This document shows positions 4,893 through 64,000 of a stretch of 64,000 bases of DNA, piece after piece. This DNA is from Malachius bipustulatus (lineage: Eukaryota; Arthropoda; Insecta; Coleoptera; Melyridae): assembly GCA_910589415.1 (NCBI GenBank), contig OU342633.1:13554858-13618857 (forward strand), read 5' to 3'. Under the pieces are notes generated by a model. It was not told the origin of the DNA, made no database searches, and saw only the letters and a list, made by a program, of their open reading frames with translations. The translations under genes were made by a program, and so were the position numbers. Within the stretch, counting starts at the first letter, position 1; the number at the start of each line of letters is the position of its first letter.

Positions 4893-4903
4893 ACACGAAA
4901 CTA

Positions 4904-4916
4904 GGCGCCTCCACCA
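4904..4916 (-). other. Primer binding site of G1
   Basis: The plus strand reads GGCGCCTCCACCA. On the element strand this is TGGTGGAGGCGCC, starting with the TGG that pairs with a tRNA CCA end. It lies two bases inside the LTR, as expected for minus-strand priming. I cannot name the tRNA with confidence. Confidence 0.75.
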
Positions 4917-4918
4917 TT

Positions 4919-5233
4919 TGTTACACGGCTGTGTAACGGGGGGTTAATAACTAACTTGGCTGCGAGTTTACATAATTGTTTATTATCGATTATTATTGAC
5001 GTTACAAATACTATTCTTAATTTTAGGATACTTTATATAAATTTACTTTCTGATCGTCCATCTAATGTTCGATCTCAACCCGAACTTCTACCAGACTCGG
5101 CTTAGACCTGACTAATTTCCATCAGAGCTTCGCCCCGCCATCCGCTTCAGTTTTCCTTGACTCAGCAGTGATGACACCATTGCTTAGCGCAATCCATGCC
5201 GTGGACATGACTATACAGGGTGATCTCGTAACA
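4919..5233 (-). repeat. 5' LTR of G1, 315 bp
   Basis: It begins TGTTAC and ends GTAACA on the plus strand, giving TG...CA ends and six-base inverted termini. The inner edge is set by the primer binding site. The outer edge is set where the flanking LINE reading frame stops making sense (LGVY, then LTR). A TATA box lies inside on the element strand. Only one LTR is in the window, so identity to its partner is untested. Confidence 0.8.
5031..5039 (-). promoter_or_regulatory. TATA box of the G1 LTR
   Basis: The element strand reads TATATAAAG in the middle of the 315-bp LTR, where an LTR promoter is expected. Transcription would start about 25-30 bases toward lower coordinates. Confidence 0.6.
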
Positions 5234-7997: not shown

Positions 7998-9171
7998 TCA
8001 CCCTTTTTCTAAGCCCTTCTTATCATCGTCTCCTGCATTTTTGTATGATTCGCAAAGATCACATTGATCTTTTTTTGGCACAAAAAATCCTATGTTGAAT
8101 TCTGTATTGAATATTCTTGCATACATATCATAGGTCGCGGCTAGTTTTTGAACAGAAGACCTTTCGCTTGAATAGTGCAGATGTAATTCAGCAATAGAAA
8201 GACCACCGTCGATATATTCCCTGGTAGTATCTTTTCGGAGGTAATGACTCTCAATCATGGGAACTGAATTGATATGGTCTCGTACTGACATCACTACTTC
8301 TTCATCCACCTTTCTATGGTGGCTGTGCTTTCCTCTTTTATCGTTCACAACCATTCCAGTACCTGATGCTCTTGACTGAATAACTGTTCGGATTGTTCTT
8401 TCAGTTATTCCAAGAGTGTCGATTAAAAATGTTTTGCATACCCGAATTTTTACTCCGTTAACAGTAAGATAAAATGCACAGTTTGGTTTCCGAGGCATTC
8501 CCGCTGTGATTCGTCTATACTTAAGTTGCAGTTGCTCAGTACATGACCCCAAGAAATCACGCTGCCTCTGCAAAGAGGCCATTTCCCAGTATTCCTTGAA
8601 AAGCTCTATAATCTTCGTTAACCTTTTTTGAACATCCCAGCGTACATTTCTCTGGACAAGGTGGCCCTAACTTTTTCGCCTGAATTACCTTTCCCGTTCT
8701 AGATTTATAGGTTTTTCCACTGTTCTTTACTCTTTTGGCTTTTACGCTTACCCAATTTTCAGAATTGCGTATCCTTTTTTTACCTTTTTTAGGACTTGGC
8801 GAGTTGACTTCACATTCTGTGGTCTCTGAAGTAGGAATTTGATGAACAACTTGTTCAGTGTCTGAGTCGGAAGATTTTGACGAGCCGCTAGACGAGTCAC
8901 CACTCGAAGGTTCAAATTCGTCACTTGACACCGAAGAAAAATCTTCTGAACTGGTCTCATGGTTGTAGGGTTTATCACAAAGCTTTCTCAGTGTAAGTTT
9001 TGTTGAGCCTCTGTTGTCTATAACGTAACTATTAGTAATATCAACTAACGTATTTTCTTCGGAATCGGGATAAGTCGAACATCCAGGCCTTGCAGAAATA
9101 TTATTTAGACCAGTTTGATTATCGTCTAATGAAAGAGCGAGATTTACTATCTTTTGAGCTCTTGAACTCAT
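7998..9171 (-). pseudogene. Unnamed transposase-like family, copy A (N-terminal two thirds)
   Basis: The start at 9171 opens an acidic, Ser-rich region. The block GKTYKSRTGKVIQAKKLG, a cysteine motif (CPEKCTLGC), then RAF / KEYWEMASLQRQRDF follow. A one-base frameshift near 8600 separates the two frames; the reading resumes at KEYWEM. Next come SVPMIESHYLR, then REYIDGGLSIAELHLHY, then IGFFVPKKDQCDLCESY. The frame ends about 15 residues later in unrelated sequence, so the catalytic part seen in copies D and F is missing. Domain order matches copies B-D. A young LTR element sits 130 bp upstream of the start. The function is inferred to be a DNA transposase from copies C, D and F, not from this copy. 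Confidence 0.75.
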
Positions 9172-9300: not shown

Positions 9301-10674
9301 TGTGACGTTACAGTAACGTCGCGACGCTGGAAAGCGACGCCAGAATTTAAATAAAATATTATTCCCACGAAAGGCGAGAAGAAATCATGTAGGAATTATT
9401 CAAGTAGTAAATTATTAAAATCCAAGCAGATAAATCGGCGACAACAAGATAAGGGAGGTTTTTTATATTGGTATCAGTGGTTGTTTACAGAAAGTGCCTC
9501 TAGGAAGGAACGGAAACAACATTTAATTCAGCGAGAAATATTAAAATATTAAATCCAAGCAAATAAATGCGAAGCCGAGGGGAAAACAAGATAAGAAGTT
9601 GTTGTTGTTTACGTCCGGTACCTATATAAAGGGACCGAGATGGAAGGAACGGTAGCAGATGGCAGCTGGCCTTCCTAGAGAACTGATCTAGGATAGCCGG
9701 TCCGCCATCTATAGCTCACCCCCTTACCCAGAGGCCCGAGTACTGATCGGGACTTCTCCTAGAGCGAAGAAGAAGAATTGACTCTTCCAAGCTCACACCT
9801 TAACCTACCCCAATGCGAAGCCTGGGTACTGACCAGGAGTCAAGTTGGGATATCACGAGAGAGTAGAATTGATACTCTTTCGTCACCCCCTAAAGCTTAT
9901 CAGTCTCGAACGTGGACCCAGGTGAAGCGAAGAATTGATTCGCGTCCCTGGTCCAATTACTCTGAGAAAGCGTATAATTCCCCCCCGTGACTTCCTAGCG
10001 CGTCGAAGTATTGACTCGACGAGTTAGCAGGCACGTAGAAGGTCAACCTTCGGTTGCGAACGAGAATTGACCGTTACGCAAGCGAAGACGAGCCCAGTCA
10101 CTCATCAAATAATGAAATCCATGGTCATTTCAGATAACTAAAATTTTACCCCGAGCTAATCTAATTTATTAATTAAATTATTCATTTAAATAAAAGGGAA
10201 TTTTTCATAAATTGAGACCATAATAGATTTCATGTAAATAATATTAATCGAGAGTTTTATTCAGTTCATTTCTCATTCTTTTATCGACGCGATAAAAATA
10301 ATAGTAAAATCATTCCGTTCCCGTCTCATATTGCACCACTAACATTTTATTTTCCAGTTGACTGAACTCCACAGAAAAACTTGTCCTCCTCGACCTACTG
10401 GCATAATCTCATCGTCGAGCGGCGGCCGGGACACTGTTTTTTACCGGGTGCTGGGCCGGGAAGATATACCGGGCGTTCACCCAGCATGCTGAACAAATCG
10501 ACTAATTATTTTACGTTTATCGCAGTTTATGGAAACAATAAATTTACATTATTTTTTTTAATGTCGTGTATCATTTGTGTAAATTCACCCAAATATCCCG
10601 TCTGAAGGCATGGGTTAAGAAATAAATTAACCCAATAATTAAGACGTCCTCTCCAAAAAAGGAGAGACGTCACA
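9301..10674 (+). repeat. 5' LTR of the gag-only element
   Basis: 1,374 bp, long for an insect gypsy-type LTR. It starts TGTGACGTTACAG and ends GAGACGTCACA. It contains a TATA box and, near the 3' end, AATAAA sites usable for polyadenylation. Short open frames inside it are identical in both LTRs and are not supported as genes. Confidence 0.95.
9623..9630 (+). promoter_or_regulatory. TATA box of the 5' LTR
   Basis: TATATAAA, followed by GGGACCGAGATGG. The same sequence is at 12710-12717 in the 3' LTR. It is the best core-promoter candidate for the element's transcript. Confidence 0.65.
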
Positions 10675-13765: not shown

Positions 13766-14924
13766 ATCAAAAAAGATAAATATTAGATAAAACGGTCACA
13801 AAGAACAGTTATGACATCAAAAATATAGAAATCTGAAATTAAAATGACACAATGAACACTTACGTCGTTATTCTTCCAAGCTCACGAGCACATTATCTCC
13901 ACAGTTTAGTCGTATTTAGCAATTATGTCATTGTAACACCAAAAGAGTAACATCTCTCTTTAAGTTTCACTCGCAACTGAACCATGTGGCATTGTTGTCC
14001 CAAACGGAATGTTTCTAACCTCAATATTCGAATAACGACATAACTGCCATCTAGCGGTCGATAGTGATTGTACACTTGCGTCGTAGTTTTTCTGTACACT
14101 GGCATTAATTTAAAAACTAATGGCGTTGTTAAGTCAAAATGTCAAAAATTTGCAGTTGCGTCATTGTTTTACCGGAACAGAGATATGTAAAATGCATATC
14201 TGCCATTTCTAGATTCGAATATGCATTCATATTTGCAATCAACTGATATTTTTTACAATACACAATAATAAAACTTGTGAAACAATAAGAATGGTAACAG
14301 AAAATGACACGCAGAATCCTGCTATCAGTATTATTGTTTTTATGAATGTCACTGCAAAGCACATATCACTAGACCTTAAGGCAAAATATCCTCGCGTTAG
14401 CTCATATTTGTGAAAATGCATTTCATTTCTTTTTTTTCTCGTAAATGCTTAAGTTTTCGAAAGAGCTTGTGAAGATAAAAAAGTTTGTAGATTAATTGAG
14501 CTATTCAGCCGTGTTTTTTAAAAGAAAAATTTTAATCTAAAAAAAAATTGTAAGGTAAAATATCTTAGGGCTTGACTATTTCAATCCCTTCTAAGCATAC
14601 TTTAGGGTTGAAAAAAATTCAAAATATGTAGTTTCATTGACAATTAATATTGACCAATTTTCGTGTCTTTAGCTTGATATACAGGGAAAATAAAAAATAA
14701 AAACAATTTTTTTTTTAATCTTCGGAGGGGTGTAACTTTTTCGGGGAGAGTTTTTTCGAAAAATTCTATACCAAATACCCCCCTTAATTTTCATCACAGA
14801 ATCACCCCTTAATTTTTTTCGGTGTTATTTAGATACACCTGTATACACAGTATATCTGAATATCAGATAAATAGTAGTGGTAAGTGATATTTCTCCTAGT
14901 ATTAATTGCTAAATTGATAACGTT
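13766..14924. other. AT-rich non-coding stretch
   Basis: This is the continuation of the pre-insertion flank of the gag-only element. I see short homopolymer runs and a C-rich phrase repeated loosely near 14730-14820 (ggggtgtaac, acccccctt, caccccttaa). There is no coding or TIR structure I can support. Confidence 0.5.
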
Positions 14925-15778
14925 TCTTCATCTCATTACAGGTACACTTTTCACATGTTTACAAATGAAATCCCTTTGTCTCTCATAAGACCCAGTTTGC
15001 CAGTAGCAGTGAAATATGGTTTTCTTATAATCTTTGCTTAATTTATCATTACACTTTAGCTTACAGTTAGAACAATCAATGGTTTTGACTTGCCTTTCTC
15101 TGACGAGTGCAGCCTGAGTGTTTATATTATATTCTTTACCAAGGTGTTTTGCAGTTTTAGCCTTTTCTTTTCCACGCTTTTGAGTTATTTTTACGTTTAC
15201 GTGTTATTTTTTTTCTTCATCTTTGCCATCTTCTATACTTGGTTCAAAATCAACAGCTTCATAGTCCGAATCATCCAAATTTTCATTGTCACCTTGTATT
15301 GAATTGCCCAAATTGTCATCTTGTAAACTACTATTAAGTGATTTTTGTATGTCTTCTTGCATAATTTCATCTTCATCATTTAACTGGAAGGGTAATCCAG
15401 GATCATTCAATTCCTGTATTGTTTCACTAGCTTTATTATTGTGATATTCTCTACCTCGCAGGCAGTACCTTCACTAATTAATGTGCAACTATTTTCTTGG
15501 TTTAAATCCTGGTTTAATATCACATACTCTTGAATATCGAAGCATTTTTTCGTAGTGTCACTATAATCTTTACCATCTTTAATTAATTCATTTTCTATTA
15601 CAATATTTCCTTGTATATCAATATTCTCTTTATCAGTTTCATAAAAGTTCTCATACAATATCAAAGGCTGCAGGTCGTTATGGCTTGTCTCACTAACCTC
15701 TTCGTAATTTTTAGTAGATAGTAGATAATTTCGATCAATACAAATGAATTGAATTCCTGCATTTGAATTAGAGTCCAA
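14925..15778 (-). pseudogene. Unnamed transposase-like family, copy B (N-terminal part)
   Basis: A start at 15778 opens an acidic region. A 46-base GT-AG intron at about 15413-15458 (donor GAG|GTAGAG, acceptor TACAG|GAATTG) joins it in phase to LNDPGLPFQLNDEDE. Two runs of A (near 15208 and 15170) then shift the frame. Beyond them it reads KHLGKEYNINTQAALV, a cysteine motif CSNCKLKC, and FHCYWQTGSYERQRDFICK. These match copies A and D in order. It ends near 14925 before the SHY and PKKDxC blocks. Indels at homopolymers could be decay or sequencing error. Confidence 0.65.
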
Positions 15779-19082: not shown

Positions 19083-19454
19083 GTGCCAACATGTGAGAAT
19101 TCTTTTTCTAAAGAGGCTCCGGAAAACGAGGCAGGGCCCTCAACACGATCTCCGCCAACATGTGAGAATTCTTTTTCTGAAGAGGCTCCGGAAAACGAGG
19201 CAGGGCCCTCAACAGCCACTGCGGAAGACGAGGCAGGGCCCTCAACACGATCTCCGCCAACATGTGAGAATTCTTTTTCTGAAGAGGCTCCGGAAAACGA
19301 GGCAGGGCCCTCAACACAATCTCCGTCAACATGTGAGAATTCTTTTTCTGAAGAGGCTCCGGAAAACGAGGCAGGGCCCTCAACACCGCGTCAGCCAATC
19401 GTTGTCCGCGTCAGCAGGTTTCGGTCGAGGTCGCCGCTGGCGCCGGAAGTTTAA
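19083..19454 (+). repeat. Coding minisatellite, 69-bp units
   Basis: Four units of 69 bp begin at about 19085, 19154, 19256 and 19325. A 33-bp partial unit (19223-19255) lies between the second and third. In one plus frame they encode TCENSFSEEAPENEAGPST repeats, ending in a basic RVSRFRSRSPLAPEV. Because 69 is a multiple of 3, other frames on both strands also stay open, so openness alone is weak evidence for a gene. No start context, promoter or homologue is recognised. It lies downstream of the 3' end of G2. Confidence 0.6.
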
Positions 19455-19557
19455 GGAATTTGTAGGAGAATATATACGAAAAAGGAACCTGTCAGGTTCA
19501 ATGCTCAGATACGGAAAAGTGATTGATCATGATAGTCGGAGAAATACGGAGAACGTA

Positions 19558-19755
19558 CCTGTCAAGGTCACTGAAATGGGTCGGAGAATGATCTGTCAAG
19601 ATATATTGAGAATTTGCCTGTCAAGGTCACTGAAATGGGTCGGAGAATAATCTGTCAAGATATACTGAGAATGTGCCTGTCAAGGTCACTGAAATGGGTC
19701 GGAGAATAATCTGTCAAGATATACTGAGAATGTGCCTGTCAAGGTCACTGAGGAG
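19558..19755. repeat. 59-bp tandem repeat, about 3.3 units
   Basis: Units begin CCTGTCAAGGTCACTGAAAT at about 19558, 19617 and 19676, with a partial at 19735; they differ at few positions. 59 is not a multiple of three, so this is non-coding. It lies between the coding minisatellite and the integrase end of G2 and may belong to the G2 3' untranslated region. Confidence 0.8.
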
Positions 19756-19813
19756 ATGTAAAGAAGGAGGCATCAAGGTCGCTGGAGAATACAGTGATTG
19801 GAACTGTTAAGGT

Positions 19814-25600: not shown

Positions 25601-27193
25601 TTATGTAAATCTGCCGTGTGTATTAAAAAAAGCAGGGGACCAAGTACCTACTGATCCTTGAGGAACTCCAGCTGGCAAACACAAACATTTCATTATAATT
25701 CTAACATTGCCCTCTTTCCACTCATATGGAAAATATTCTAATCTTAAACACGCATTGTATAAGTTCTTTAGCACCTCAAGAAATGTAGTATACGACGCAA
25801 CCTTTGGTGCTTCTGTCTCAATCAGGTCAGTGCTTGGAGATTTTTTGTTCTTAAATAGTTTTATTGCACTTTTTATATCGTCCGCCGTCCACCCGTCAGC
25901 GTGTGACTCATTATTCAGGACTGGAGGATTGGACTCAAATACTTCGTCTGTCTCATTGCCAAATAGTCCATCTAGCAAGGCAGTCACCGTATCCTCCCAG
26001 CTCATTATGTAGCCGTGTTGTGTTTGTAAGCCTGTATTAAAGTTTCTGGTGTTGATCTTTTCACTGCACATTTTATATATGAAGCCATAGACTTCATCGT
26101 TGCCTTCTTTTGTGACAAACTCTCTCCAACTCTTTGTTCTGGCTACTCTTACTGCGATTTCATATTCTCTTCGCACCTTCTTGTATTTGGTGCGAAGTCG
26201 TTCCTTGAGTTCAGGATTTTGTTCGCGTTGGTAGGCTCTTCGTTCCTTGTTGGTGTTCTTTTTCAGTGTGTTCAGTTCATCTGTCCACCAGTGTACCGAT
26301 TTCCTAAAGTTCTTTTTCTTTGGCATGGATGCTTTGCAACCTTTTATAATCAATTTCGTAACTTTCTCTACAAGTAAGTCTATTTCTTCCGGACTATTCG
26401 GTATTTCTCTTATTAGGTTCTGCGAGCCCACCTCAACGATTTCCTTGAACTTTGCCCAATTTGCTCGATTTATATTGAATCGTCTGTGTTGTTTTTGTTT
26501 GTTCTCTTCTGGGACTTTTAGCTCCAAGTATATGACTCTATGATCGCTACTGTTCCAGCCGTCTTTTACTTTCCAGTTTGCCACATTAAGCGGAGTTTCA
26601 GTAGGCATAAGCGTGATATCTATATCTCTATCGCCTCGCACATAAGTGCTTGGTTGTCCTGGTACATTTAGTGCAACCAATTCTAATTGAGCCATGATTT
26701 CCTCAATTTTTTGGCCATTATCATCTGACTCTTGAGTTCGCCACGACCAGAGTGGAGAGACACCATTAACGTCTACCGAAATTATTAATTTCTTTGAGCC
26801 TATTCTTCTCTTGGCCTCACTTAGAGTCCGAAGGTACTGCTCTATTGGTTCAGAAAACTGACAATACAGGCTCATGACGTACAGATCTATGCCGGGTCCT
26901 TCTATATGTGCGCACACACAGTGCGAGGTACTGATATCCGCCAACAGTGTGGATGTGTACTCTTTATCCAATAAGCAGATGGCTGCCCAAGGTCTCTCAC
27001 CGGGTGCACAGCCGGTTATGGTTTGATTTTTATACATTCCCAGTCCGCATACTTTGTTTCCGGTATCTGTGTATGGTTCCTGAACCAGTAGTAACGTTGC
27101 TTTAATCTTGTACGCTATCTGCATTGTCTCATTTGTGGCCATTTGGCCTCGCCCTAAATTTGCTTGCAGTATGATTATGTTATTATTCGCCAT
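25601..27193 (-). pseudogene. R1-like ORF2: endonuclease, truncated RT
   Basis: It starts MANNNIIILQANLGRG and has an APE-type endonuclease over residues 1-225: LLLVQEPYTDTGNKV, LIISVDVNGVSPLWSW, and SSDHRVIYLEL near its end. A linker and the RT N-terminal block (WTADDIKSAIKLFKNKKSPS, then FPYEWKEGNVRIIMK) follow. The frame then jumps straight to LPAGVPQGSV, a block normally about 150 or more residues downstream, so part of the RT fingers and palm is deleted; the FADD motif is absent. The deletion keeps the frame for a short way before a stop. Confidence 0.88.
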
Positions 27194-29015
27194 AGTCCGT
27201 ATTAGCCACGATTCTTTCCAGTACTTTCTTGTACATCGGGCATTTATTGTTCATGGCATGGTTTGTTTGTTTGCCCGATCTTTTGCAAGGCACGCATATC
27301 TTGTCTTTCTCTTTCGATTTACACTCTTTTAGGGAGTGTCCATCTTTTGCGCATTTACCATAGGTGGTCACGCTCTGTTTGCATACTTTCGCTATATGGC
27401 CTAGGCTTTGACACTTATAGCACCTTGTAACAGATTTAAAATCTTTCACCTTACATCTCTGCCACCCGATGTACAACCCACTGCTCCCACACAGTAGGTT
27501 CCTCACCGCCGGGGATACCTCGCATACCCAGTGACAGGAGTCAGTGTTCCTCTTACCTACTTTGAAGCTCGGCTTAATAACACTGTCTTCGTCTAATTTG
27601 TCTTCATTTTGTGCATGTATAACGTCAGTAAGTTGTTCTGCCGTATAGTGTATGGGCACATCATAAATGATAATTTTAGGTGATCGCTTTTCTTGCCTCG
27701 TTATTGTGGGGCCTTTTTCTCTCAGATTTTTGTTTCCTTCAAGCTTCGCAATGTCATTTTCACTTTCAGTCTCTACTATCAATAATCCTACTGTTAAAGC
27801 CCCACAAATTATAAATATTGTAAATAGTTATTCTTTTTCCTTTTTGTTTTTGCGGGTTTTCCACTATCACAGAGGTGCCTTTATTTGTTGTTAATTTAAT
27901 TTTTAATTTGAATCGGGAGTAATTATTGCCTGATAACCCCACTCGCCGGATCGGAGCGAGGGCAGATCGAGCGCCCACTTGGCAATCGTCGGTATTAGGA
28001 GTCAGATTCGCTGACCAAAAGAAATTCGGTGCGCCGCGACAAAATTATTGTTTTTGCATTCAGTGGTACCTTTCAAGTCTTTTTTCACACTGTTATTCGT
28101 TGGAGACCACATCGGAGCCAGACTCATCACCCATCACCTAGGCCTAGGATAGGAAGCCCACTCTTCAGTTCGAGAAGGTAGGTGGATTTTCAGGCAATAT
28201 CGTAAATAAATACAGTCCATTAATTTAATTTGAAAATCGGTACAGTATTTGAGGCTGTACTTAACACCTACTCTTAGCTTTTTAACTGCTTTATTGTGTA
28301 TCTTGTCCCTAGTCGGGCTTATCGTTTCCTGTAATGCCTTTTTGATATTTTCTTCAGGTTCATTTATATCTTTAGACTTTATAAATATTGCATGCGTTTT
28401 GTCCCTTTTAATTTTCAGTCTTTTCGGTCCTTTACTAGGTGGAACTGTGGGTTTTGGACCTTTCAGGTTTCTAACCAGCACTTCCTTGTACGTTTTTGAC
28501 TGTGTTTTTGTTCTTTCACCTTTTAGCTTGGCATTTTCCAGTGCCAGTTTTAGGTACACTTGTTTCATTTTCTTCAACTGTAACTGTGTGTACTCCATAA
28601 CTTTCTTGCTAAATTTTGCCTTTGTTTGCAATTCTAATAAGCCATTTAGTGTCTCGCTTTCCAGATCCTCAAACTGTCTGAGTGCGGTTAGTTCTATTTC
28701 GTCCGCATCCTCTTCCCTGTTTGAGATCTCACTTGTATCTGTTTGTTGCCTAGCCGCGCTATTGATGCTGCTTTGCCTATCAATTTCTTTCAATCTTTGG
28801 CTGTCTGTCCCAGCCACCACTGCAATATGATTGCAGCCTTGCACCGCTTCATCTCTGATTGTGCAGGCCACCCGGGCTTTCACCGGATCGGAACCTGCAG
28901 ACGGATTGTCCACCTTTTGTGGCATACCGCCTGGGGTATTTTTGGTTTTGTTTTCAGACATCATAGCTTCTATTCTTTTTTTCCATTTTGTTACGAAGTT
29001 TGGTTCTCCGGCCAC
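27183..29015 (-). pseudogene. R1-like ORF1 (gag-like), split by a solo LTR
   Basis: The N-terminal frame 29015-28267 has a coiled, charged region (EVLQ-like YTQLQLKKMKQVYLKLALEN) and ends KKLRVG. The C-terminal frame from 27786 starts LLIVETESENDIAKLE. It carries three zinc-knuckle-like motifs (CYKCQSLGHIAKVC; YGKCAKDGHSLKEC, whose first Cys is Tyr; CVPCKRSGKQTNHAMNNKC). Leaving out the 475-bp LTR and one copy of its 5-bp target repeat puts both halves in one frame of about 450 codons, the usual size. Nucleic-acid binding is inferred from the knuckles. Confidence 0.87.
27792..28266. mobile_element. Solo LTR, 475 bp, 5-bp target duplication CCTAC
   Basis: It begins TGTTAAAG and ends CTTAACA. 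CCTAC flanks both sides (27787-27791, 28267-28271). The five-base duplication fits BEL/Pao or Copia integrases better than the 4-base gypsy type. No internal region remains, so it arose by LTR-LTR recombination. Its insertion into ORF1 is confirmed by restoration of that frame when it is ignored. Confidence 0.88.
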
Positions 29016-29640
29016 TCAATTGTTTTGTGTCTGTGAGGGAGAAACAGACATTGGCTCTTGTTTTTGGTGGGGACTGCACCAGGTGCTTTTAAAGGGGGAG
29101 GCGGAGTAGCCGCTCTTTAAGCGACATACTCCGCCTTCGAGTTTTCATTTCAATAGAAGAGCAAGCACGCACAGGCGTACTTGCTACTGCTCACCGCCCC
29201 AGTAGGTCCCAGCTTTTGCTTTTGCTCTATCCACTGAGCCTTATCTAAGTTCACATGTATGCACTATCATGCATATTTGTTATTTTGTTATTATTCGGCA
29301 CTGCACCTATGCCTTATTATTGAGCCATCCTTTACTTCATATTTTACTTCACATTTCTGTATCCTTATATATTCTGATCTTCAATGTCCCTCTTTGTTTG
29401 ATTAACCCCTCAGCTACTGAACACCGTTTGCTGGGCATCCAGGGGCCTGAAAGCCTTCCTCCGTCGGTTTGGCTAAGCCAGTTCCAGCGGGCACCACGAG
29501 GAGGTGAAGGATCGGCACGTCCATGACTCTCTCCACGTATCGTCCGAGGCACAGTCGCGATCCCCAGCAGCCAGCCTTGGGTAAGGTTAGACTACCGGTT
29601 CTAGGCATGAATACCCCGGCAGGACACGCAAGAGAGCCAC
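29016..29640. other. R1-like 5' leader remnant and unassigned stretch
   Basis: 29016-29150 holds the R1-like leader with a GC hairpin (ggcggagtagcc ... tactccgcc). 29230-29247 reads, on the minus strand, ggctcagtggatagagc, like a tRNA A box, but no B box follows. 29400-29640 is GC-richer and may be the decayed 5' part of the plus-strand LINE that begins after it. Confidence 0.4.
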
Positions 29641-31395
29641 AGTTACTCCCGCCGGGCAGATGGGACTATCGCATCCACGGCTACTGAGAAGGCGAACTTG
29701 TTGGCGGGAGTGTTTTCTTCATACTCTTCCGTCGACTTTCATGGAAGACTCCGCCAATGATCCCTTCCGTGGACACCAAAATGTCAGACATTGTTTTCCG
29801 ACAGCGGGTCATAAAGAGCATTATGTTAGCCTTAGACCCAAACAAAGCTTCTGGGCCCGATGACGTACCTGTTATCGTACTAAAAAAATGCGCCACTGAG
29901 CTGTCATCTGTTTTCTGCCGACTTTTCAACTTGTCGTATAAAAAGGGAATATTTCCTACTTGTTGGAATTGTGCACGGATCCAACCTATTCCCAAGAAAG
30001 GCAAAAAGACTATACCAAGTAACTATCGACCTTGTAATTACTGCTTTCAGTAATATCCAAGATTATGGAGAAAGCTATTAACCAACATCTTTTAAAATAC
30101 TTGGAAGGAGCTAACATAATCAGCGACCGCCAATACGGATTCCGTAAACAGAGGTCAGCTGGTGACCTCCTCACTTACGTCACCGAGCTGTGGAACGGCG
30201 CAATCGAGCACCATGGGGAGTCTCGAGGGGTTGCGCTTGATATTTCTAGAGCTTTCGACCGTGTTTGGCATGGTGGACTGTTGGCAAAACTGCAGGCCTA
30301 TGGCATGCCCGAGAAATTCTGCTTGTGGCTTGCGAGTTATCTCGGAGATCGTTCATTACAGGTGGCAGTCGATGGAGTTCTTTCTGAGACCTTTTCCATC
30401 AATGCCGGTGTGCCTCAGGGATCTATTTTATCTCCGACTCTCTAATATTTATAAACGACTTGCTTGAAACAACAAAAAATCCAATATACAGTTTTGCCGA
30501 CGACAGTACCCTCATATCTTCTTATACGTTAGATGCGCGAACATCTGCCATCGACGCACAGACTCGCAGGGAGCAAGAAGTTGCCATACTTAACAATGAC
30601 TTGCAAGACATTCTAACTTGGGGCGATAGAAACCAAGTCCAATTCAATGCTGGAAAAACCCAAGCAGTCATCTTCTCCAAAAAGACCAACGTTTTGGAGC
30701 CAGATATGATGATGGCGGGACACTCTCTTACCCCAGCGTCATCTCTTCGTTTACTTGGAGTGAGCCTCGGAGCGAACATGTCTTGGGTTGATCATGTTGC
30801 TGGTCTGGCGAAGAGTGCTTCTCAAAAACTTGGAACACTCTTCCGCACGAAGAAATTTTATACACCACAACAGCTTCTCCTCTTATACAAGGCTCAAATC
30901 CGACCATCCTTGGAGTACTGCTCACATGTTTGGAGCTCAGCTCCCAAACATACGCTGAGTGAGACTACTCGACTCTATTCAGAAAAGAGCCATCCGCTTG
31001 ATTGGGGACCCAGATTTGACAAAAAATTTAGACACTCTCGAACATCGAAGAAGAGTGGCTGACCTGAGTCTGTTTTACAGATATTTTAATGGAAGGTGTT
31101 CAATAGACTTGGCCCGCTTGATCCCACCAAGAACAAGACCGGGCAGATATACACGTCGAGCCGCAGACGCTCATCCGTATCAGGTTCAGCTCATTACACC
31201 TCGTACCACCCTATTTCAGACTTCTTTTATGTACAGAACCGCATCACTTTGGAATATCATTCCAAAGGGCGTGTTTCCCGAAGTATACAACTTACAGAGA
31301 TTCAAGGCCAACGTGAATCGATATCTCCGCTCATGCACCGCTCCCAGAGCGTCATAGGGATTTCCCTGCAGTGCATGTGCATTTTCAATAAATAA
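29640..31395 (+). pseudogene. CR1/Jockey-like LINE, ORF2 reverse transcriptase and tail
   Basis: A 5'-truncated plus-strand LINE. The blocks run in order: EKANLLAGVFSSYSS (about 29687); LDPNKASGPDDVPV; RVIFSDRQYGFRK-like IISDRQYGFRKQRSAGDL; GVALDISRAFDRVWH (RT block with catalytic Asp); AGVPQGSILSPTL; YSFADDSTLIS (FADD catalytic pair); RLLGVSLGANMSW; and a C-terminal segment LFYRYFNGRCSIDL. Shifts near 29757, 30055, 30448 and 30955 break it. The 3' end is ATAAATAAAAAAAAAA at about 31387, followed by a (TTAATGAA)-like simple repeat to 31465. The clade is not settled. Confidence 0.87.
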
Positions 31396-33639: not shown

Positions 33640-35335
33640 ACGAGTGACGACTGTCGATCACCACAAACTGCGACCTAATTAATATCTAATAAAAGATTTT
33701 ATATACTGGCAAAACCTTCCCGTTCACCTTACACCTCAGAAGAGGATCAGAAGCAATATCTGCTATTGGCAGAGACAAATACAAACTAACTTCGTCGGCA
33801 CTGGTATGTCGAAGATTGGTACCTTCGTATCCCTCCCCAAAAAAACTTTTTTTACGTGGCGGAAGGTCACTTTCATCATTTTCTTTGTCATTTGTTTGAA
33901 GTAATTGAATGCGGGCTCTTAAGAAATTATAACTTTTTTCTTTGTGTTCTAAATCTGCAATAAACGGCAAGTGTTTGTGCCTTGGATCCAGGAATGTCGA
34001 AATGAAAAAAAATGTTGTCTTGACCTTGGGTATGATTGGGCTGCTCACTTGACAAACAATCAGAAAATCTAGTTTTTAATTCCTCTTTAACCGTTGTTTT
34101 GAACTGTTTAATTGTGTCGGAATCATCGATCTCCTCAACCAAATGCATGTTTACAAGGGCATAAACAACAGGGCACACAACAGTTATAGAAACACCATTT
34201 TCTGCAGAAAATGTTTCAGTTGCAGTTTTTAAGGGCAATAAGCACTCTTTTAATTCAGTTATCAGCGTCCAGTCTTCATCGCGTAATGTAATAGTTCTGG
34301 CCTCGGATATTTTCGTTATTTGTCTGTCACTTAATATAGCCACCATAGCCCATCTTTGTTCCACAACCCTGTCGCACATATCGTATGTGCTATTCCATCT
34401 TGTAACGATAGACTGGATTAGCTTATGTTGCGGTAGATTCATATCGGTTTGTTTTTTCTGCAAAGCACTAGTAGCCTTGCAACTTCGCTTAAAGTGGCCA
34501 ACTAAACGTGACAAACCGCCCAAACCCCTTTGGATGCGTTGAATTTTCAGTCCATTATCAATAGCTAATTGCAATGAGTGTGCTCCACATCCAATAATAT
34601 GTTTTTCAAAATAGTCGGAGTTCTCCAGAGCTAAATTTATATTTGCTGCATTATCGTGGACACAAACAAAACATTTCTCTGAAATATCAAACTCCCTTAA
34701 AATTTCTTCAATTTTTGCTTGAAGGTTAACAGCTGTGTGAGTTTCAATCATCATTTGGGTAGCTAAAACGGCGCTATGAACAGTGCAGTTAATTGCATTT
34801 ATGTAATGATATTATTATGTGATGGCATGTTTATTGACGTCCAACAGTCGGTCGTGATATAAATTTTGGCGTAATTTTTGTCAATTAATTCTTTCTGTAA
34901 AATTATTTTAGTTTCGCTGTACTTTTTTCCAGCAGCAAAACGATCGCTGTTCTTGTCGGCATTTTATAATTTGGTTCGCAGAAGGCAATGATTTTTTTAA
35001 ATGAATTCGATTCTATAAATTTTATAGGCAGCATGTCCTTGTAAAAAATTTCCAAAATCAAACTGGTTATTTGCTTTTGTCGTGTTTGGTCACACGCCCT
35101 CTGTGTTACAACAAATTTGTCGATGCGAGATTGCGAAGGACCTGCTTGTGGTTGCAGATTTATATCAATAATTGTCGGGTGCTTTAGGTTAATGTGATTC
35201 CACAATAATCCGGTGCTAGAGGGATGCTTCAGTTCCGCGGAGCACACTTTACATTTTGCTTTAATGCTTGGAATTGTATTTTTATTTTATTATTTTATTT
35301 CCGATTTTATCAAAGTACTTCCACACCGCACTCAT
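33640..35335 (-). pseudogene. hAT transposase (BED-type), 3' truncated
   Basis: The start Met at 35335 opens MSAVWKYFDKIG. After a short AT-rich insertion a BED finger reads KCKVCSAELKHPSSTGLLWNH. The RNase H-like core follows with VCVHDNAANINLAL, CGAHSLQLAIDNGL and TRWNSTYDMCDRV (the hAT RW motif). The C-terminus reads FLDPRHKHLPF and DEVSLYLSLPIA, the start of the dimerisation block. It stops before the conserved WW and ends near 33690. Several frameshifts are present. No TIRs identified. Confidence 0.85.
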
Positions 35336-39800: not shown

Positions 39801-40325
39801 TTACAATTGCTGGTAGATTGGTTTATAAAATTTAGGTACGTGGTATTTCTCTATTAATTCAAGAAGATCTTTCTTCTTGTTGTTTGGTAATCCAGGTTTG
39901 GTGTTGAATGCTCGTGTTAGTGTAATGCTATCCTTCATTCTTTTTCTTCCTATTGATATTTGCTACTTAAAAGTTGTCGTCCTCATAAGACGTTTTATAA
40001 AAAAGGGAAGTCGGTGATTCACGCTCCATACGGACAACCTTCACTGTACCTATTTTTATTAGAGACATATTCAGGAGCCCCATTTCAGTTGCTAGAGCTT
40101 TTAGATCCAGGAAATCTCCGAAGTCACAGTTCTGTGACGTTAAATGACTTTCCAGTTTTTTTAGCGGCACGGATTGCAGCAACGAATGATTCTGGCGTGT
40201 GCATTGGACCACCCTTCAGCTGTCTTTTCTTTTCACCTGACGCTCAATCAATAAATGTGCCGAATCTACCTCATTTTGCGTGGAGCCTTGATCTTGGAGT
40301 CTCTTTTATTTGATTATTTCTATTA
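39801..40325 (-). pseudogene. Unnamed transposase-like family, copy E (C-terminal part)
   Basis: It reads GPMHTPESFVAAIRAAKKLE, then NCDFGDFLDLKALATEM, then a SPTSLFYKTSYEDD motif. After one frameshift it ends GLPNNKKKDLLELIEKYHVP and a stop at 39801. The same order (IYLPQQYFTLVRTAKK, LFVDLKQL, YKTSY) is seen in copy D, which ties this fragment to the family and supplies its natural C-terminus. It lies outside the TIRs of the element carrying copy C, so it is a separate copy. Confidence 0.7.
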
Positions 40326-40505: not shown

Positions 40506-41073
40506 AAATATTATATAAATGAAATTTGAGTTTTAATGTAGCGGCCCGCGGCCATTTTTATTTTTTATTATGCAATCTTTGAATTGAAGGGCTTTATGCA
40601 AGAGGTCCCTATGTAACATTTTCATGTTCTGAGATATTTCAAGTTGAACATTTATTTTTAAGTTTTTAATTTTTATATATTTTATTTATATATTAATTTT
40701 TATACATATAAGTATTTTGTTTCATTATCTTGATTCTTGAATAAACCTTGCTTTTAATGTTGTTTAGTTGATAGTTAGTTTGAACGCAAGAAAACTGCAC
40801 ATTTGTTCGAGAAAATAACAAAAAAAGTTTCAACTTAGCGACTTTTTGTACAAAAATATGTTTTACCAAAGTTTTATTCACCTGAATTATTGTAAGTACA
40901 ATGAAACTTATCACATTAACACATTCTGAACTATATAAAAAATAAAAAATAATAATAACAATAATAAAAAAATAAACTACATTTCTTTCAAAGCCTGCAA
41001 ACGTAAAAATTTAATAAAACGATATTTCAGGTCATATGAGTATAAAACTTTTTATTAAAAACTCTAAGTCGCT

Positions 41074-41111
41074 TGCCGACCGGTTTCGGGTTTTAATCCA
41101 TCATCAGGACA
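41074..41111 (-). ncRNA. Hammerhead-ribozyme-like motif HH1
   Basis: The minus strand reads, in order: helix I strand UGUC, core CUGAUGA, one unpaired U, GG, loop, CC plus C, core GAAA, short palindromic helix III ACCGGU giving the GUC cleavage triplet, then GGCA pairing back as helix I. All invariant core bases are present. Helix II is weak. Short palindromic helix III is typical of hammerheads that act as dimers, as reported for Penelope-like elements. Confidence 0.6.
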
Positions 41112-41451
41112 GCTGAAAAGTGAGGTTTTTGTTGTAATAAGATGTAAAAATTTCGAACCGATAAACCATAATTATGTAGGTCTAAACAATCAGAATACTC
41201 ACCTGTCATCTGAACCGCAATTGTATCTTTTACAAGAGAAACCATTAAGTTGTTAATATACATAAAAAATCCAGAAAGTCAAAAATGTGGAATTTCTGTC
41301 ACGAAAACACCAGATAGTACAAACTACTGTTGAATACATCAAAAATATGTGCATATTAAAATTTGAAAAATATACACATAGAAATTTAAACTTTTTCGAA
41401 GTGAAAAAGGAACATGATTGAGTACTTAATTGAGGATTAAGATTTTAAATT

Positions 41452-42654
41452 TTAATAATAATTAATAATAATAATAACGTAAGCAAGTAAAACTAGCGAC
41501 CATCGTGAAGCGATGGTGCCAGGGAAATGATTTGGTGAAATCAGAAGTACAAGATGGAAGTTTTTGTAACTGGCAAAAGGTAAGTTTTTCTGAAAATCGA
41601 AACATAACACTAGTTCAGTATCGGAACTTTGCTTCCTCTCCTTGAGTAAATCAAAAACCACCTGCGCTCTACGTAGATGCAGCTCTCTGGACACAGTAAT
41701 CGATTTCACGTCGGTCTCACATTTTTTCAACTTTGCCGAGTTAAGGTCTGCTAAAAACTTTGTACATGCTGCACAAATATCTTTGCGTGGATGAGCAAAA
41801 GAGTAGTTGAAATTTTCAAAGAAAATCTTGTAAAACATACCATACTTTATTGGACAGCGGGGAAATTTCTGGTGTAGTCTCTGTGAAGCTGTGAAACAGA
41901 AAGGTCATCAGGGCGAAGATATTTCTTACATCTTTTTTGTGTCCGACTGTACTGGGATTCTACAGCAGGCAGATCTTTTAAAAACTGGTGAACATTCCTA
42001 ACTGTATCAGCACTCAATTTGTTTTTGCGATTAGAATGTATGCCTCTAAAATCTCTCACGTCTTCTACCTCAAACCTCAAGATTTTTTTTCTAAGTCTAT
42101 CTCGTTTTATGCAATGAAGGGATAAGAAAAATGTTTGACAAACATTAACAGATTTTCCGTCTGCTACAACCTTGTACTGAAAAATTTTCCGCGGACGCCT
42201 ATTTTTATTGATGTGCCTCGCAGCTGGTTTGGAGGTAATACATCCTCGTAGGTATAGGTTCTGTTCATTATGATTACTTTAATTCTGAAAACGTTCACAA
42301 ACCTGTTTGTAAGTATCTTGAGTAAACTTTGTTTTGCAGTTACAACGACATGCTGGCATTTCTCCTTGTTGCCCTGACTTCCTTAACTTCGCTGATTTCT
42401 TTTCCCGTTTCCATTCCATTGGATTTGACTTTATTTTTTTAGGTCTAGTGACTAGTTCATTTTCGTTTTCGCTTTCCTCAACTACTTGATTATTTTCCAT
42501 CAAAGTTTTTCTAACCTCTCTTTCTGGCCGTATCCACTCATCATCATCACTGCCAGGGAATGGCTCTACAAGTTAACATTCTTATAAATATCACTGTTTA
42601 CGTCTATATTTAACATTGAAACTTACCTATTATATTCTCTTCACTATCACGCAT
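41452..42654 (-). pseudogene. Unnamed transposase-like family, copy C (with first exon)
   Basis: Exon 1 is 42654-42627 (MRDSEENII), with donor GTAAGT. The intron runs 42626-42566, and exon 2 starts at 42565 after CTTGTAG, in phase. Then an acidic region, PMEWKREKKSAKLRKSG and the cysteine motif ACRCNCKTKF. An in-frame TAA near 42284 interrupts, after which NEQNLYLRGCI continues, then KDLPAVESQYSR and DDLSVSQLHRDY. After a frameshift near 41870 it reads FAHPRKDICAACTKF and LVLCFDFQKNLP. Another shift near 41578 follows. The blocks match A and D in order. Stop and shifts make it dead. Confidence 0.75.
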
Positions 42655-42934
42655 GTTGCACCACACTGATTAACAGACTAATATTGTTTTGTAAACAAAC
42701 AACTATCAAGATAGGTACGTTTTCCAAGTAAGGCACTTTTAAACACTTAGGCACTTTTTGCATAAAAATTGTATACTCGGGATTACAACCTGCAACCAAA
42801 CTAACACTAGGGACATATCAGAGCTTAACTACATATTCCACGTTGAAGTTTGGTTACATCGGCACTAGATGTCGCCGCCAGTACCAAATATCCAAATTGT
42901 TACTTAGGGACTTCTTGCATGAAGCCCTTCAATT

Positions 42935-49911: not shown

Positions 49912-49980
49912 CCATAGGTTACAGTCAAAAGTTCTCACTCAAATTTCTTGGAAGATGTATGTCAATTGAAGTTTTTTTTT
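49912..49980 (-). pseudogene. pol: BEL/Pao RT fragment, upstream side of the hAT
   Basis: The frame HTSSKKFE(stop)ELLTVTYG leads directly into GTNCAQFLATR beyond the hAT-1 element. It is only about 20 codons before it meets copy F near 49980, where another breakpoint lies. Confidence 0.65.
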
Positions 49981-50270
49981 GTCCTTTCAATAATAGCATG
50001 ATCCACATCACATTCGAGGTGCGTGTATCCAGGTACCAAAGATTTATGATCAATAATTTCTATTGTTGGACACAGCTGAATGGCATAGTAGAACATAGAG
50101 CAAACGTATGAGTTTTCGTTTTGCCCCCCCGCAAGTGTCGGAGTAAAACACTACATCTTTAATTGCACTTGGAATGCTCTTTAAATGCAAGTAGAGACAG
50201 GAAGCTATTTCATTTGCACCTCTACCAGCCGTTACTAAATTTCTCGAGAACCTAGTGTTATTAATTTTCG
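49975..50270 (-). pseudogene. Unnamed transposase-like family, copy F (catalytic core)
   Basis: One uninterrupted frame: GRGANEIASCLYLHLK, then KDVVFYSDTCGGQNENSY (the SDNxxGQ block), then IEIIDHKSLVPGYTHLECD, then DHAIIERTKK. It is the best-preserved catalytic segment in the window. Compare copy D (HEGEGKRGAIEI; FSDNFCGQ; HKFLVSGHTQNEGDNAH). The Asp-rich, evenly spaced blocks look like the middle and end of an RNase H-fold nuclease. It is joined to BEL/Pao on one side and a gypsy on the other. Confidence 0.75.
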
Positions 50271-51546: not shown

Positions 51547-51855
51547 TTATTTAATATTTAGCTTTTCAAACTCTTCAGCATATATCTTTATCTTTCTTGA
51601 CTGGGTCTTTTGGGGATTCTTTAGTAATTTACAGTAAAGCTCATACATAATTGATAAATTTAATTCAGAGCCTAGATATTTTTTGAGTGTGCTTTCTTGA
51701 ATAATGTGACTCGTATGCTGGAAATGATAATATATGGTTCCTATTATCTCCGAATCTTCATCTGAAGTTTTATTCCAAGGTATATGGCATCCTGTCTTAT
51801 CATCAGATGCACTGAGAAAAAGGTCTATTAATGTCAACGTCATCCGCATTATCAT
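51547..51855 (-). pseudogene. Unnamed transposase-like family, copy G (SHY block)
   Basis: 102 codons. Residues about 48-77 read FQHTSHIIQESTLKKYLG, then SELNLSIMYELYCK. This matches the (I/F)PxxxSHYxRxxSxRxYLxxxLSIxxMYxxY block between the cysteine motif and PKKDxC in copies A, C and D. The upstream part (ASDDKTGCHIPWNKTSDED) is acidic, and the downstream part leaves the family. This is the weakest of the seven copies. Confidence 0.45.
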
Positions 51856-57329: not shown

Positions 57330-58745
57330 GCTTGGGATATGCTCGCTGAACTGTAAATTTTCAGAGGAAGCAGCTCAGTTTTTGTTCGTCTTGTACGATC
57401 TGTGACGTTAACAGACTTGTAGTTCAGCTCCTTATACGAAGTTTTGTAAAAAAAAAAAAAAACTGGGTGCTCTTTTTCCACACGAAGACCAGCCTAGGTC
57501 ATTAAATTTGAAATTGTCCCCTTCAGAATTTTTATTAAAATTTAAGGTGGTAAGTTTGGTCAGTTGCTTCAAGTCAACAAAAAGATCGTGGCCCATTTCG
57601 GTGACTTTAAATTGTCTTCCAATCTTTTTGGCAGTTCGAACTAATGTAAAATATTGCTGTGGTAGGTAAATAGGACCTGACTTCAAGGAGAGTTTCACAT
57701 TTTATTCTACGAGTATAAGGGGGTGTGCATTATCCCCTTCATTTTGGGTGTGCCCGGAAACCAAAAATTTATGAGTGATTGATTTAATCTGGTAGTTGGC
57801 AACTGCAAATAGAAAAGCGGTAATTATTTATTTATTTTTCTCCTGACCACAGAAATTATCCGAAAAAAGAGTTACTTCCAAAGCATCAGAAGCTGTCGAT
57901 ACTTATTTTCCAAATATTGTTATTACAATATTCTGGAGCCAATTCTGGACAGGAGACAATTTCAATTGCACCTCTCTTACCTTCACCTTCATGCTACATG
58001 TAACAATGAACGGTTCCTTGCCCTTTTGATTAGAGATCACAGATTGTGAAATTGTAAGTCGCTAATTTGGATTTGTAGTAAAAACAACTACTTAACGTTT
58101 TCCCTCTGTGTAGGTAGAGTCGCTTGCAACTCAAAGCAAGCCACTTGATACAGCTTACTTATTTTTGTTTTGTCATTTTCTTTTGCTTCTCTACTTAATT
58201 TTTTTTCTTCTTGATGACTGATGTATTCCGTCTTCAAAGATTAGTTTTGTTGCTCATTGAGTTTTCATACGAGATACACAATTGACATTGATCTTTCTTC
58301 GGCTTAAAGAAAGCTAGATTAAACTCGTAATTGAAAATTTTTCTGTACATCGTTAAATTAGCAAACGGCTTACCATGGGCTGCACATGAATTTAATTTTG
58401 TGTAATCTCTGTATAACTGGGCAATTGTCTTTCCTCCTTCGATAAATTTTCGTTCACTATGCGCCCTCACATAGTGACTATCAACTGTGGGTATAGATAA
58501 AATATGTTGCCGAACTCCGTTCTTTATATCTTTGGAAATTTCTTTTTTTATCTGCATTCCTCTTTTGTCATTTTGTACAATTCCGTCCTCGTGTTTTGCA
58601 ATGACCTATATTTTGGGGTGATCGTCATCATTGAATTGTGAATAAAATTATTTATTTGTTTATTGATATCTCCCAATGCCCAAAATTTTTCAAATAGAGT
58701 CGATCTATCTTCCTCAGTCAGTGTTCACAACCTGAAGCTCGGCAA
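57330..58745 (-). pseudogene. Unnamed transposase-like family, copy D (most complete)
   Basis: Blocks in order, in shifting frames: LTEEDRSTLFEKFWALGD; an internal gap relative to copy A; IVQNDKRGMQIKKEI; SIPTVDSHYVRAHSERKFIE; FFKPKKDQCQLCISY; YQVACFELQATLPT (Asp of the block is Glu here); YNFTICDL; CYM(stop)HEGEGKRGAIEI; FSDNFCGQ; SITHKFLVSGHTQNEGDNAH; GPIYLPQQYFTLVRTAKK; DLFVDLKQL; FYKTSYKELNYKSVNV. This shows that N-terminal copies (A, B) and C-terminal copies (E, F) are one gene family. Stops, shifts and a deletion make it dead. Its 5' cysteine motif is lost. Confidence 0.8.
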
Positions 58746-58931: not shown

Positions 58932-59928
58932 CAGGGTGCACCATGTATCCTTCTCTATATTGCTATCTCCTGAACGCTAAGAGATACAGGGTCGGTTAAA
59001 TTAGAGAAAAGATGCGCAGTTTTGTGGCCATCTCGAATTCGTCAAAACATGCAAGATATATGTGACCGTTCCTGAAATATCCTGAAAAAACTGAAAAATC
59101 GAGATTTCTTATTTTCCTCATATCTTTTTTATTATTGGAAATTAATAAATAATTTTTTGTAGGCCTACATAAGCCGTTAAGAGCTATCCATCTGACATTT
59201 CAAAAATTTTCAAGGCCTACTAGATCCAAGAGTTTTCACAGTCAACTTTCGTTTTTCTTATGGCCGCCATATTATTTTTTTATGTCGTTCGATATGAAAA
59301 AAATAATGGAAACCAAAAATTAATAAACTTCAAAAAAAATTTTTTAATTTTTATTCTTAATTTTTCAAATAAAAACCTAATAAAAAATCGTCTAAAAACG
59401 TCAACATTTGTAAAATACGCCGAAATAGTGCTTGCCTTATGGTTTTTTAATTTATCTATGAAATTCGGTCTAATTATGTGTCTTTTTTGTAAAGAAAAAA
59501 GAAGAATAAAAAAAATTTTAATTTATTTTTTGAAGTCTAACAATTTTTTGTTTTTGTGATTTTTTTTATACCGAACAACATAAAAAAACACTATGGTGGC
59601 CATAAGAAAAACGAAAGTTGACTGAAAATTATGGGATCTAGTCGGCTTTGAAAATTTTTGAAATTTCAGATGGGTAGCTCTTGACGACTTATGTAAGCCC
59701 ACAAAAAATTATTCATTAATCTCCAATAATAAAGAAGATATGGAAAAAATAAGAAATCTCTATTTTTCAGTTTTTTCAGGATATTTCAGGAACGGTCACA
59801 TATATCTTGTATGTGTCGACGGAATCGAGATGGCCACAAAATTGTGCTCCTTTGGACTTGTTTAACCGACCCTGTATCCGTTAGCGTTCGGAGATAGCAA
59901 TATAGAGAAGGATACATGGTGCACCCTG
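58932..59928. mobile_element. 997-bp foldback element, CAGGGTG ends, TA target
   Basis: Ends CAGGGTGCACCATGTATCC and its inverse, TA on both sides. Arms of roughly 360 bp pair across a roughly 270-bp AT-rich centre. The arm interiors match to the phrase aactttcgtttttcttatgg. Open frames inside are AT-driven and not supported. Confidence 0.85.
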
Positions 59929-61909: not shown

Positions 61910-64000
61910 TTAAAACTCATTTGGTATTAAAATGCTATTAAACTCGTCCACATCTGCTTCACCATACAAATCACCAATTTTTTTGTCAGTTGATTCGGAT
62001 GCAGTTTTCTTTTTGTACATTAAAGCTTTATTCATACGACTGTATTCACTCTGCGATGGTTCGTATGTTGTGCAATCAGCGTTTTTATTCTTTTATTATT
62101 TGTTTGGCTAAGAGCACACCATTTACAGTTGAAATCACCATTTTATTACGAGTTTTAGTTTTAAATAAATTTATCTGGCTAAATACAGGTGTCCCGTATC
62201 GTTATGTTCAAATCTTGTGAGCATATAGTAGGCTTATTTCTAAGCCTAAAAAACCCAAAAGTGGTAGGTCTATCTTTATTTGTTACGAAGTTACAGGTCT
62301 AAGAAAATAATGTCCAGTAAATACCAGATTTAACATAAAACTTATTTTAGTGACCAAACCTTTAGTTTATCATGTATTAATTAAAAATGTCCTATTCCTT
62401 GCTGAATACAAGCTTGTGCTCGGAGGCCTATTGCAAAAGTTATAGTTTTCTCGTATTTTTTCGTGTACCTATCTCTTGACCAGCTTGCTGAATACGATCA
62501 AATAATAATTTCTCTCTGGTATTTAGTTACAAACACCAATATGCTTGTGCTCCGAAATATGCTGGTGCCCCATCCATTTGAATCCTAATGCCATTTCGTA
62601 TGAGCAGGGGAACCTCTACTAATGTTTATTTCGGTGACGTTTACTCATGTCGTTACCATAACAATAAATTATTAGCCTAAACCACAACACATGTCGTTGT
62701 GTGGCTTACAAAGTTGAATCTTGTTATTTACTAGTCATAATTTTCTTAGACCTGTAACTTCGTAACGGGTAAAGATAGACCTGTTACTCTTGGTTTTTTT
62801 GGGCTCAAAATTAATCCTACTATATGCTCAAAAATTTTGAACATAACGATACGGGACAGCCTGTATACGTTCACTGTCGGCATTCGAATGCGGAAGTGAA
62901 ATTACATTTAGTACAAATTTTGATAGATTTTTAAAATTCATTCCCTGGTTGCCTTCTTCGCAAACCATCAAGTTTGCCCAAAAATGATCAATCGGATCTT
63001 TAACGTCAATCTCCTCCGGAATCTCAAAAGATGGTAATTGCGCCACTCATCATCGATTATTTGATACACATTTCGTGCTAAATCTTCGCAGCTTCTTGGT
63101 AACTTCTTGCATGCATTACTAGCACAGAGACGCAACGAATGGCAGAGACACTTGAAAATGTAGATACCAGGACACTTCTCGATGAATCTTGAAGCTACAG
63201 AATTATTTGTTCCCATCATTGTACTCGCTCCATCAGACGCAAATCCGATTATGTTCTCAAACGGGATCTCATATTCTTCAAACGATTTTGTCAATAGTCC
63301 CAACAAATGTTCCGCCGTAGCACCCTCGACATCTGAATTTTTCTCGAAAACTTGGCAAAGATCCCAAAACTTGCTAACTACTCGGCCTTCTTCAGCATCG
63401 AAAAACCTGTTTAAAAAATGCATTATTTTAAAGGTGTAAAAGATACGATAGACAAAAGACAATTATATCATCCATAAAAACTAAAAAAAAATCTTTACCT
63501 TACAATGACACACATCGTTTGAATACTCCCAATATCAGTAGATTCGTCTATCAAAACGCTGAACAGACTGGTCTTCAATTTAATTTGTAACTGTTCTTGT
63601 TCAGCTGCCGCGATTACATTTTTTATTACAGCAGTTCCTTTTGTTGATTTTAATTGCATATTTTTGATGATGTTGGAGTCAGGAACAGCACTTTTTAAAA
63701 GTGTTGTCAGGTGAGTCAAAGTGACGAAAGAGATATTATGTTCGGCCACAAAACCACACAACTTTACTTCGAGAGCTTGAGTGCGTTGGCTTTCCTGCTG
63801 ATTTCGTCACTTTTTTTTGAAATTTGGAAATGGTTGGCTGAGCTTCTAGAGGCTTGCGACGATTTATGTGAGCTTTCGAGGCCAAGTGGTTTTTAATCAC
63901 AGTCAGCTCCGCATTTATTATAACGTTGCACGTACGATACTTAGCTTTGTGCTGATGATCAGGCACGTTCTAAGCCATTGTTTATAGTCGTCGTGTTTAA
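61910..64000 (-). pseudogene. hAT transposon gene hAT-2, 5' end off-window
   Basis: N-terminal finger KYRTCNVIINAELTVIKNHL, then SFVTLTHLTTLLKSAVPDSN and FSVLIDESTDIGSIQTMCVI (first catalytic Asp). A 92-base intron (63498-63407, GTAAAG...CAG) follows. Then FDAEEGRVVSKFWDL, IIGFASDGASTMMGTNNSVA, CLCHSLRLCASNACKKLP. A large deletion leads to DHFWANLMV and the dimerisation block LSKFVLNVISLPHSNADSER. There a MITE intervenes; beyond it KTKTRNKMVISTVNGVLLAK follows and the frame ends at 61910. ZMYM/KIAA-like hAT. Non-functional. Confidence 0.85.
62186..62863. mobile_element. 678-bp MITE in hAT-2, TA target
   Basis: Left CAGGTGTCCCGTATCGTTAT and right, inverted, CAGGCTGTCCCGTATCGTTA continue for about 45 bp. 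TA is on both sides. Ignoring it and one TA restores the hAT dimerisation frame at SERIFS, so the boundaries are firm. No coding. Confidence 0.9.

Follow-up and report, generated by a model that had tools for sequence, protein, structure and literature searches.

What kind of element left the transposase-like blocks that recur through a 64,000-nucleotide stretch of the genome of the beetle Malachius bipustulatus (assembly GCA_910589415.1, contig OU342633.1, positions 13,554,858 to 13,618,857; hereafter the window)? An earlier note, made from the sequence alone, had listed seven such places, here called copies A to G, as relics of a single unnamed transposase-like family. Our analysis indicates that they are very probably the decayed remains of a DNA transposon family with several lineages, whose protein, carrying the Pfam domain DUF7869 (PF25273), is a predicted transposase with a ribonuclease H (RNase H) fold and a triad of three aspartates (DDD); the elements would likely move by cut-and-paste, leaving a 4-base-pair (bp) duplication of the form ANNT, and likely belong to Sola (Sola2) or a sister group. 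Sequence evidence for this reading comes from the family relation, the near-invariant D-D-D triad, inverted repeats and 4-bp target duplications, and also from related empty sites and from uninterrupted copies that are nearly identical and lie at different loci. What remains in the window is old, and the parent family looks to have moved recently at other places in this genome.

The grouping of the seven places into one family was borne out by a family profile built from 55 relatives, which matched all of them on the minus strand at 10.7–305 bits, against a background of 2.0 bits for the best match in the reversed window. Window-internal tblastn with pieces of A and D as queries linked A to D (6e-27), A to C (2e-7) and D to E (2e-6), and more weakly A to B (4e-5), D to G (3e-4) and D to F (0.002). 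A query assembled from pieces of A and D returned 558 database proteins at E 0.001 or better; among the best 120 listed, the named matches came from beetles, moths and a lacewing, and PF25273 was present in 105, with no domain in 14 and PF03184 in one (P0090). In direct Pfam scans, PF25273 exceeded its curated cut-off in 9 of 10 and 5 of 6 relatives of the window copies; none of eight window pieces scanned alone, cut or decayed as these are, reached that cut-off. Neither the window pieces nor any of 16 relatives, some full-length and some partial, matched a transposase-named Pfam family, the lone exception in the scan of ten relatives (at E 1 or better) being a sub-threshold resolvase helix-turn-helix match in one of them, and no NCBIfam model rose over its cut-off in six proteins scanned.

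The nearest relatives of copy A are P0015 (74% identity) and P0026 from Diabrotica (74% over the best stretch), whilst a search with copy C returned only 11 proteins, the nearest of which, P0121 (52% identity), is clearly related to P0007 (27% identical, 5e-39). A search with the clade-2 alignment brought in a third clade, with 343 proteins at E 0.01 or better, the named matches among the best 120 listed being insects and one sea slug. A tree of 41 rows places C in clade 2 and sets A and D apart from each other within clade 1; several lineages therefore invaded the stretch. No relatives were found in IMG/VR, GTDB genomes or phages at the sensitivity of those searches. Named relatives are mostly labelled in public records as uncharacterized or hypothetical proteins, and are nearly all insect proteins under the uninformative label DUF7869. 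A literature search found DUF7869, PF25273 and the family motif words in no paper, and a link between DUF7869 and transposons was not found in print within the literature searched.

Two AlphaFold models of family proteins contain an RNase H core, the fold for which the earlier note had proposed a check, with a near-invariant D-D-D triad at the RNase H positions. The nearest solved structures to these models were the Mos1/SETMAR transposases and retroviral integrases, and families missing from the fold-match lists were not taken as excluded. Sequence search found no related solved structure (best E 0.023, a ribosomal protein), and a viral structure library gave no match at E 0.001 or better. 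A glutamate two places ahead of the third aspartate is kept in 221 of 233 filled rows; proline replaces it in 11, among which are 7 of the 8 rows of alignment A2, and the aspartate was therefore preferred as the third catalytic residue. We predict that the DUF7869 protein is a transposase of the RNase H fold with a DDD triad, likely acting by cut-and-paste.

In order to survey the family in its own genome, the 544-Mb assembly was searched for DUF7869, giving 367 candidates of which 150 were scored. At least 150 matches exceeded the PF25273 cut-off, with none in 14 control genomes, and an uninterrupted frame of at least 500 residues was present in 44 of the 150 scored. Among them are elements of 2.4–4.4 kb at different loci that are 99.7–100% identical (for example, 100% over 3,568 bp, 100% over 2,823 bp, and 99.8–100% over 2.4 kb in three copies), with identity ending where the inverted repeats lie or no more than about 25 bases away. 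We fetched 31 distinct insertion loci with a family protein, counting window copy C but not L042, at which one end was seen. Both ends were found at 25 of these (missing in L023, L028, L049, L050, L052 and L053), a non-random sample to which near-identical groups contributed 18 and the score ranking six, the last being the element around copy C. All but one of the 25 measure 2,345–4,448 bp, the other being a deleted element of 1,322 bp; terminal inverted repeats (TIRs) are 27–39 bp at 24 loci, and an open reading frame (ORF) of 487–778 residues is present in 16 of 19 bounded elements.

An exact 4-bp direct duplication flanks 24 of the 25 both-ended insertions (L055 is without any), a duplication of 3, 5 or more bp flanks none, and in none of the 25 does flank identity run past 4 bp. 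The boundary of L002, which differs in one terminal base, was placed by family resemblance. The duplications are AATT (10) and ATAT (8), the others being ATTT, AACT, AGAT, ACAT, AAGT and AAAT, so that all 24 have the form ANNT and 20 the form AWWT. Taken alone, the palindromic AATT and ATAT could be element sequence, 156 of 600 cross-locus flank pairings matching over all loci; for the six non-palindromic duplications, left flanks match the right flanks of other loci in 0 of 144 pairings, and these six therefore cannot be element sequence. Elements with the same ends also carry different duplications, namely ATTT at L012 and AATT at L013, AACT at L021 and AATT at L022, and AGAT at L026 and ACAT at L027. 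Related empty sites were recovered for two loci. When the flanks of L017 are joined, they match 300/300 bp without interruption, ATAT occurring once; this site is the second arm of a perfect inverted repeat and may be an effect of the assembly. The joined flanks of L021 match two copies without interruption, at 95 and 96.5%, AACT again occurring once. Candidates for L010, L011, L013, L018 and L025 were discounted as too diverged or misaligned at the junction. Together, the predicted RNase H-like core, the inverted repeats, the 4-bp duplications and the dispersed near-identical copies uphold the transposase-like character first suggested for the blocks.

The inverted repeat at L017 (1–965 and 5632–6596) is perfect over about 960 bp on a 421-kb contig, with the DUF7869 element beside one arm only; it reflects a fresh palindrome or else a fold-back in the assembly.

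The elements fall into two terminus classes, and these follow the transposase tree. Ten of the 25 begin with 5'-CG and 15 with 5'-GA (in one GA element the left base is changed), and in a tree including the genome's own ORFs the CG class goes with clade 1 and the GA class with clades 2 and 3, on opposite sides of a branch with full support in the Shimodaira-Hasegawa-like approximate likelihood ratio test (SH-aLRT). With nine labelled rows, an equally good separation arose in 4 and 6 of 500 label shuffles.

Within the window, both ends are kept around copy C, in an element of 2,345 bp (40586–42930; element C). Its 37-bp TIRs, the left beginning GAAGGG (40586–40622, plus strand) and the right at 42894–42930 (minus strand), are identical at 33/37 positions, scoring 31 as against 16.5 or less in 100 dinucleotide shuffles, and an AATT target duplication lies immediately outside them (40582–40585 and 42931–42934). 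The right end has a second copy elsewhere in the genome, L042 (97.6% over 123 bp), whose match ends at the identical base; ACAT, not AATT, comes next there, and the AATT at element C therefore belongs to the target. An outer AATC/AATC pair, also of 4 bp, was not preferred, since agreement between the inverted repeats is lost just beyond AATT and since ACAT follows the L042 end. A further TIR-like block lies at 42745–42766 (minus strand), agreeing at 19/22 positions with the right TIR and 18/22 with the left. Copy C itself (41556–42500, minus strand) is a decayed N-terminal and middle part, corresponding to P0121 residues 28–336, with profile matches at 41575–42479 (62 and 30 bits; profile positions 101–415); its coding part ends past the first catalytic aspartate and most of the core is gone. 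A weak C-terminal profile match at 40621–40788 (5.1 bits) was distrusted, as relatives align only to P0121 residue 336. The region at about 41013–41558 matches dispersed genome stretches at 75–96%, most of them without a family protein, and another dispersed repeat probably sits there in place of the missing core.

The remaining relics, all on the minus strand, are protein fragments. Copy D (57375–58724) is the longest, a clade-1 sequence with several stops and frameshifts which, with matches of 235, 203 and 27 bits, spans profile positions 168–647 and so joins the N- and C-terminal blocks, as had been noted. Near it, at 58996–59290 and 59573–59842, lie two copies, oppositely oriented, of a sequence 78–79% identical to the target that harbours a DUF7869 element at L011. 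Copy A (8004–9171, by profile and tblastn) retains the N-terminal and middle transposase part, with a frameshift near 8560–8610 and the catalytic core missing; its profile matches (305 and 67 bits, 8004–9039) cover positions 29–375. Copy B had been placed at 14925–15778, where family sequence does occur, but the family part, an N-terminal fragment (profile 58–225, 63 bits), is at 14865–15383, at the low end of that interval and partly outside it. Copy E (39801–40323; profile 512–691, 67 and 27 bits) is a C-terminal fragment reaching the protein end, copy F (49971–50232; profile 453–542, 36 and 27 bits) a fragment of the catalytic core, and copy G (51680–51742; profile 283–303, 10.7 bits) a 21-residue fragment and the weakest of the seven. 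For A, B, D, E, F and G, a search of the surroundings for inverted repeats turned up chance-level pairs only; candidate ends of A, the 11-mer GGGCCTCTGGG at 7355–7365 and 9727–9737, were rejected for want of a convincing adjoining duplication.

The seven relics had been called independent. A, B, C and D have overlapping profile segments and are therefore separate insertions, and E is very likely not a part or tail of C, judging from its eight best matches, which are clade-1 proteins, those of C being clade-2 proteins; beyond A to D, seven stands as an upper bound. F and G share a strand and follow the order of the protein, with 1.4 kb between them and no profile overlap, as expected if they, perhaps with other pieces, were one insertion and the window held four to six insertions, not seven; the gap is about three times as long as the missing 150 residues would require, however, and G is too short for clade placement, and we regard the chances for and against a single insertion as balanced. 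With four to seven insertions, chance may suffice for the shared minus strand.

Several other repeats are present in the window. A Ty3/gypsy-type retrotransposon occupies 676–4943 (minus strand), with protease, reverse transcriptase, RNase H and integrase zinc domains in 676–3645 and a 230-bp tandem duplication, 99% matching, at 4158–4625. Tandem arrays with periods of 69, 102 and 59 bp lie at 19085–19777, in part open in two frames, with no Pfam match for the one frame scanned. Pieces of long interspersed nuclear elements (LINEs) run in both orientations through 25601–31357, including an endonuclease match at 25601–27250 (minus strand) and open frames at 29688–31357 (plus strand) that by eye resemble reverse transcriptase. 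Relics at 33927–35286 and 62968–63462 (both minus strand) look by eye like hAT transposases; the latter gave only a sub-threshold DUF659 match, and 33927–34811 had no Pfam match at 0.01.

A mechanism can be proposed from the fold, the conserved residues and the element ends. The Cys-rich, helical N-terminal part would probably bind the terminal repeats and the three aspartates would hold metal ions, the DDD core probably cutting both ends and joining them to an ANNT target with a 4-bp stagger; repair then leaves the 4-bp duplication, a step evident in the duplications observed. Element C, without most of its core, could since that loss have been moved only by other copies. The analysis gives a proposed mechanism, element ends and a target rule to DUF7869, a Pfam domain without a function that occurs in hundreds of database proteins, the named ones seen being nearly all from insects. 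Genome projects can mask DUF7869 genes as transposons, and the uninterrupted near-identical copies with defined ends make a scarcely studied type of transposase directly testable.

That public records speak mostly of uncharacterized or hypothetical proteins would suit DUF7869 genes that were ordinary host genes, with the window blocks as immobile pseudogenes, but this is hardly credible in the face of inverted repeats, target duplications, empty sites and near-identical dispersed copies, and the bounded copies contradict it. The transposon reading also gives content to PF25273, which is the family's C-terminal catalytic region yet is functionally blank in Pfam, its match in the proteins scanned starting past the first catalytic aspartate and leaving out the N-terminal and middle parts. 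Amongst known enzymes, retroviral integrases and IstA/TnsB resemble the family in an RNase H-type core and a similar element order; they have a DDE triad where DUF7869 has DDD, and no integrase Pfam model matches the proteins scanned. Duplications of 4 bp also occur in piggyBac, Kolobok, Ginger and Chapaev, and the elements could on that count belong to one of these superfamilies; piggyBac and Kolobok target TTAA, however, which is found in 0 of the 24 duplications, and no integrase, piggyBac or CACTA-type Pfam model matched in 16 proteins scanned, so that such a placement is very improbable. Tc1/mariner elements differ in their 2-bp TA target duplication (PMC10741241), as against the 4-bp ANNT of DUF7869 elements, whose six non-palindromic duplications show no 2-bp duplication; identity to Mos1 and SETMAR is 4–13% in catalytic-core matches, and the bounded DUF7869 elements mostly encode 487–778 amino acids. 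The 7–12-bp duplication given for Mutator-like elements (MULEs) in the same account (PMC10741241) is likewise at odds with flanks whose identity stops at 4 bp.

The nearest published description is that of Sola, the class singled out for comparison in the earlier note. Sola is described as having a DDD transposase, 4-bp duplications, lengths mostly of 2–9 kb and TIRs of 11–1124 bp (PMC10741241), whilst Sola2 elements are described with AWWT duplications and TIRs of 12–21 bp (PMC3627910). DUF7869 elements differ from the latter in that four of the 24 duplications are ANNT but not AWWT, in their longer TIRs (27–39 bp) and in having two terminus classes, 5'-CG and 5'-GA. The wider target and the two classes, together with the lack of any match to transposase-named Pfam or NCBIfam models in the proteins scanned and of any paper on DUF7869 or PF25273 in the literature search, would favour a separate DDD cut-and-paste superfamily resembling Sola only in triad and duplication length; we consider this unlikely, as the triad, the 4-bp AT-rich duplication, the TIRs and the element size all lie within the published Sola description, and Repbase decides membership, and merges groups, on the basis of PSI-BLAST convergence (PMC4455052). 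In its fullest form, that of an unnamed DDD superfamily, abundant and recently mobile in insects, using ANNT sites, with two lines of ends matching the halves of the tree and hidden as hundreds of 'uncharacterized proteins', the proposal can be entertained tentatively. Like Sola and Sola2 as published, DUF7869 elements combine a DDD triad of predicted catalytic function, a 4-bp AT-rich duplication (in 24 of 25 insertions), TIRs, a length of some kb and occurrence in animals, and 24 of the 25 fall within the 2–9 kb usual for Sola, with TIRs above its 11-bp minimum. As the triad and the 4-bp AT-rich duplications agree with the published description, Sola or a sister group is the best filing for the family, one that we consider likely and have made by published features, not by sequence comparison.
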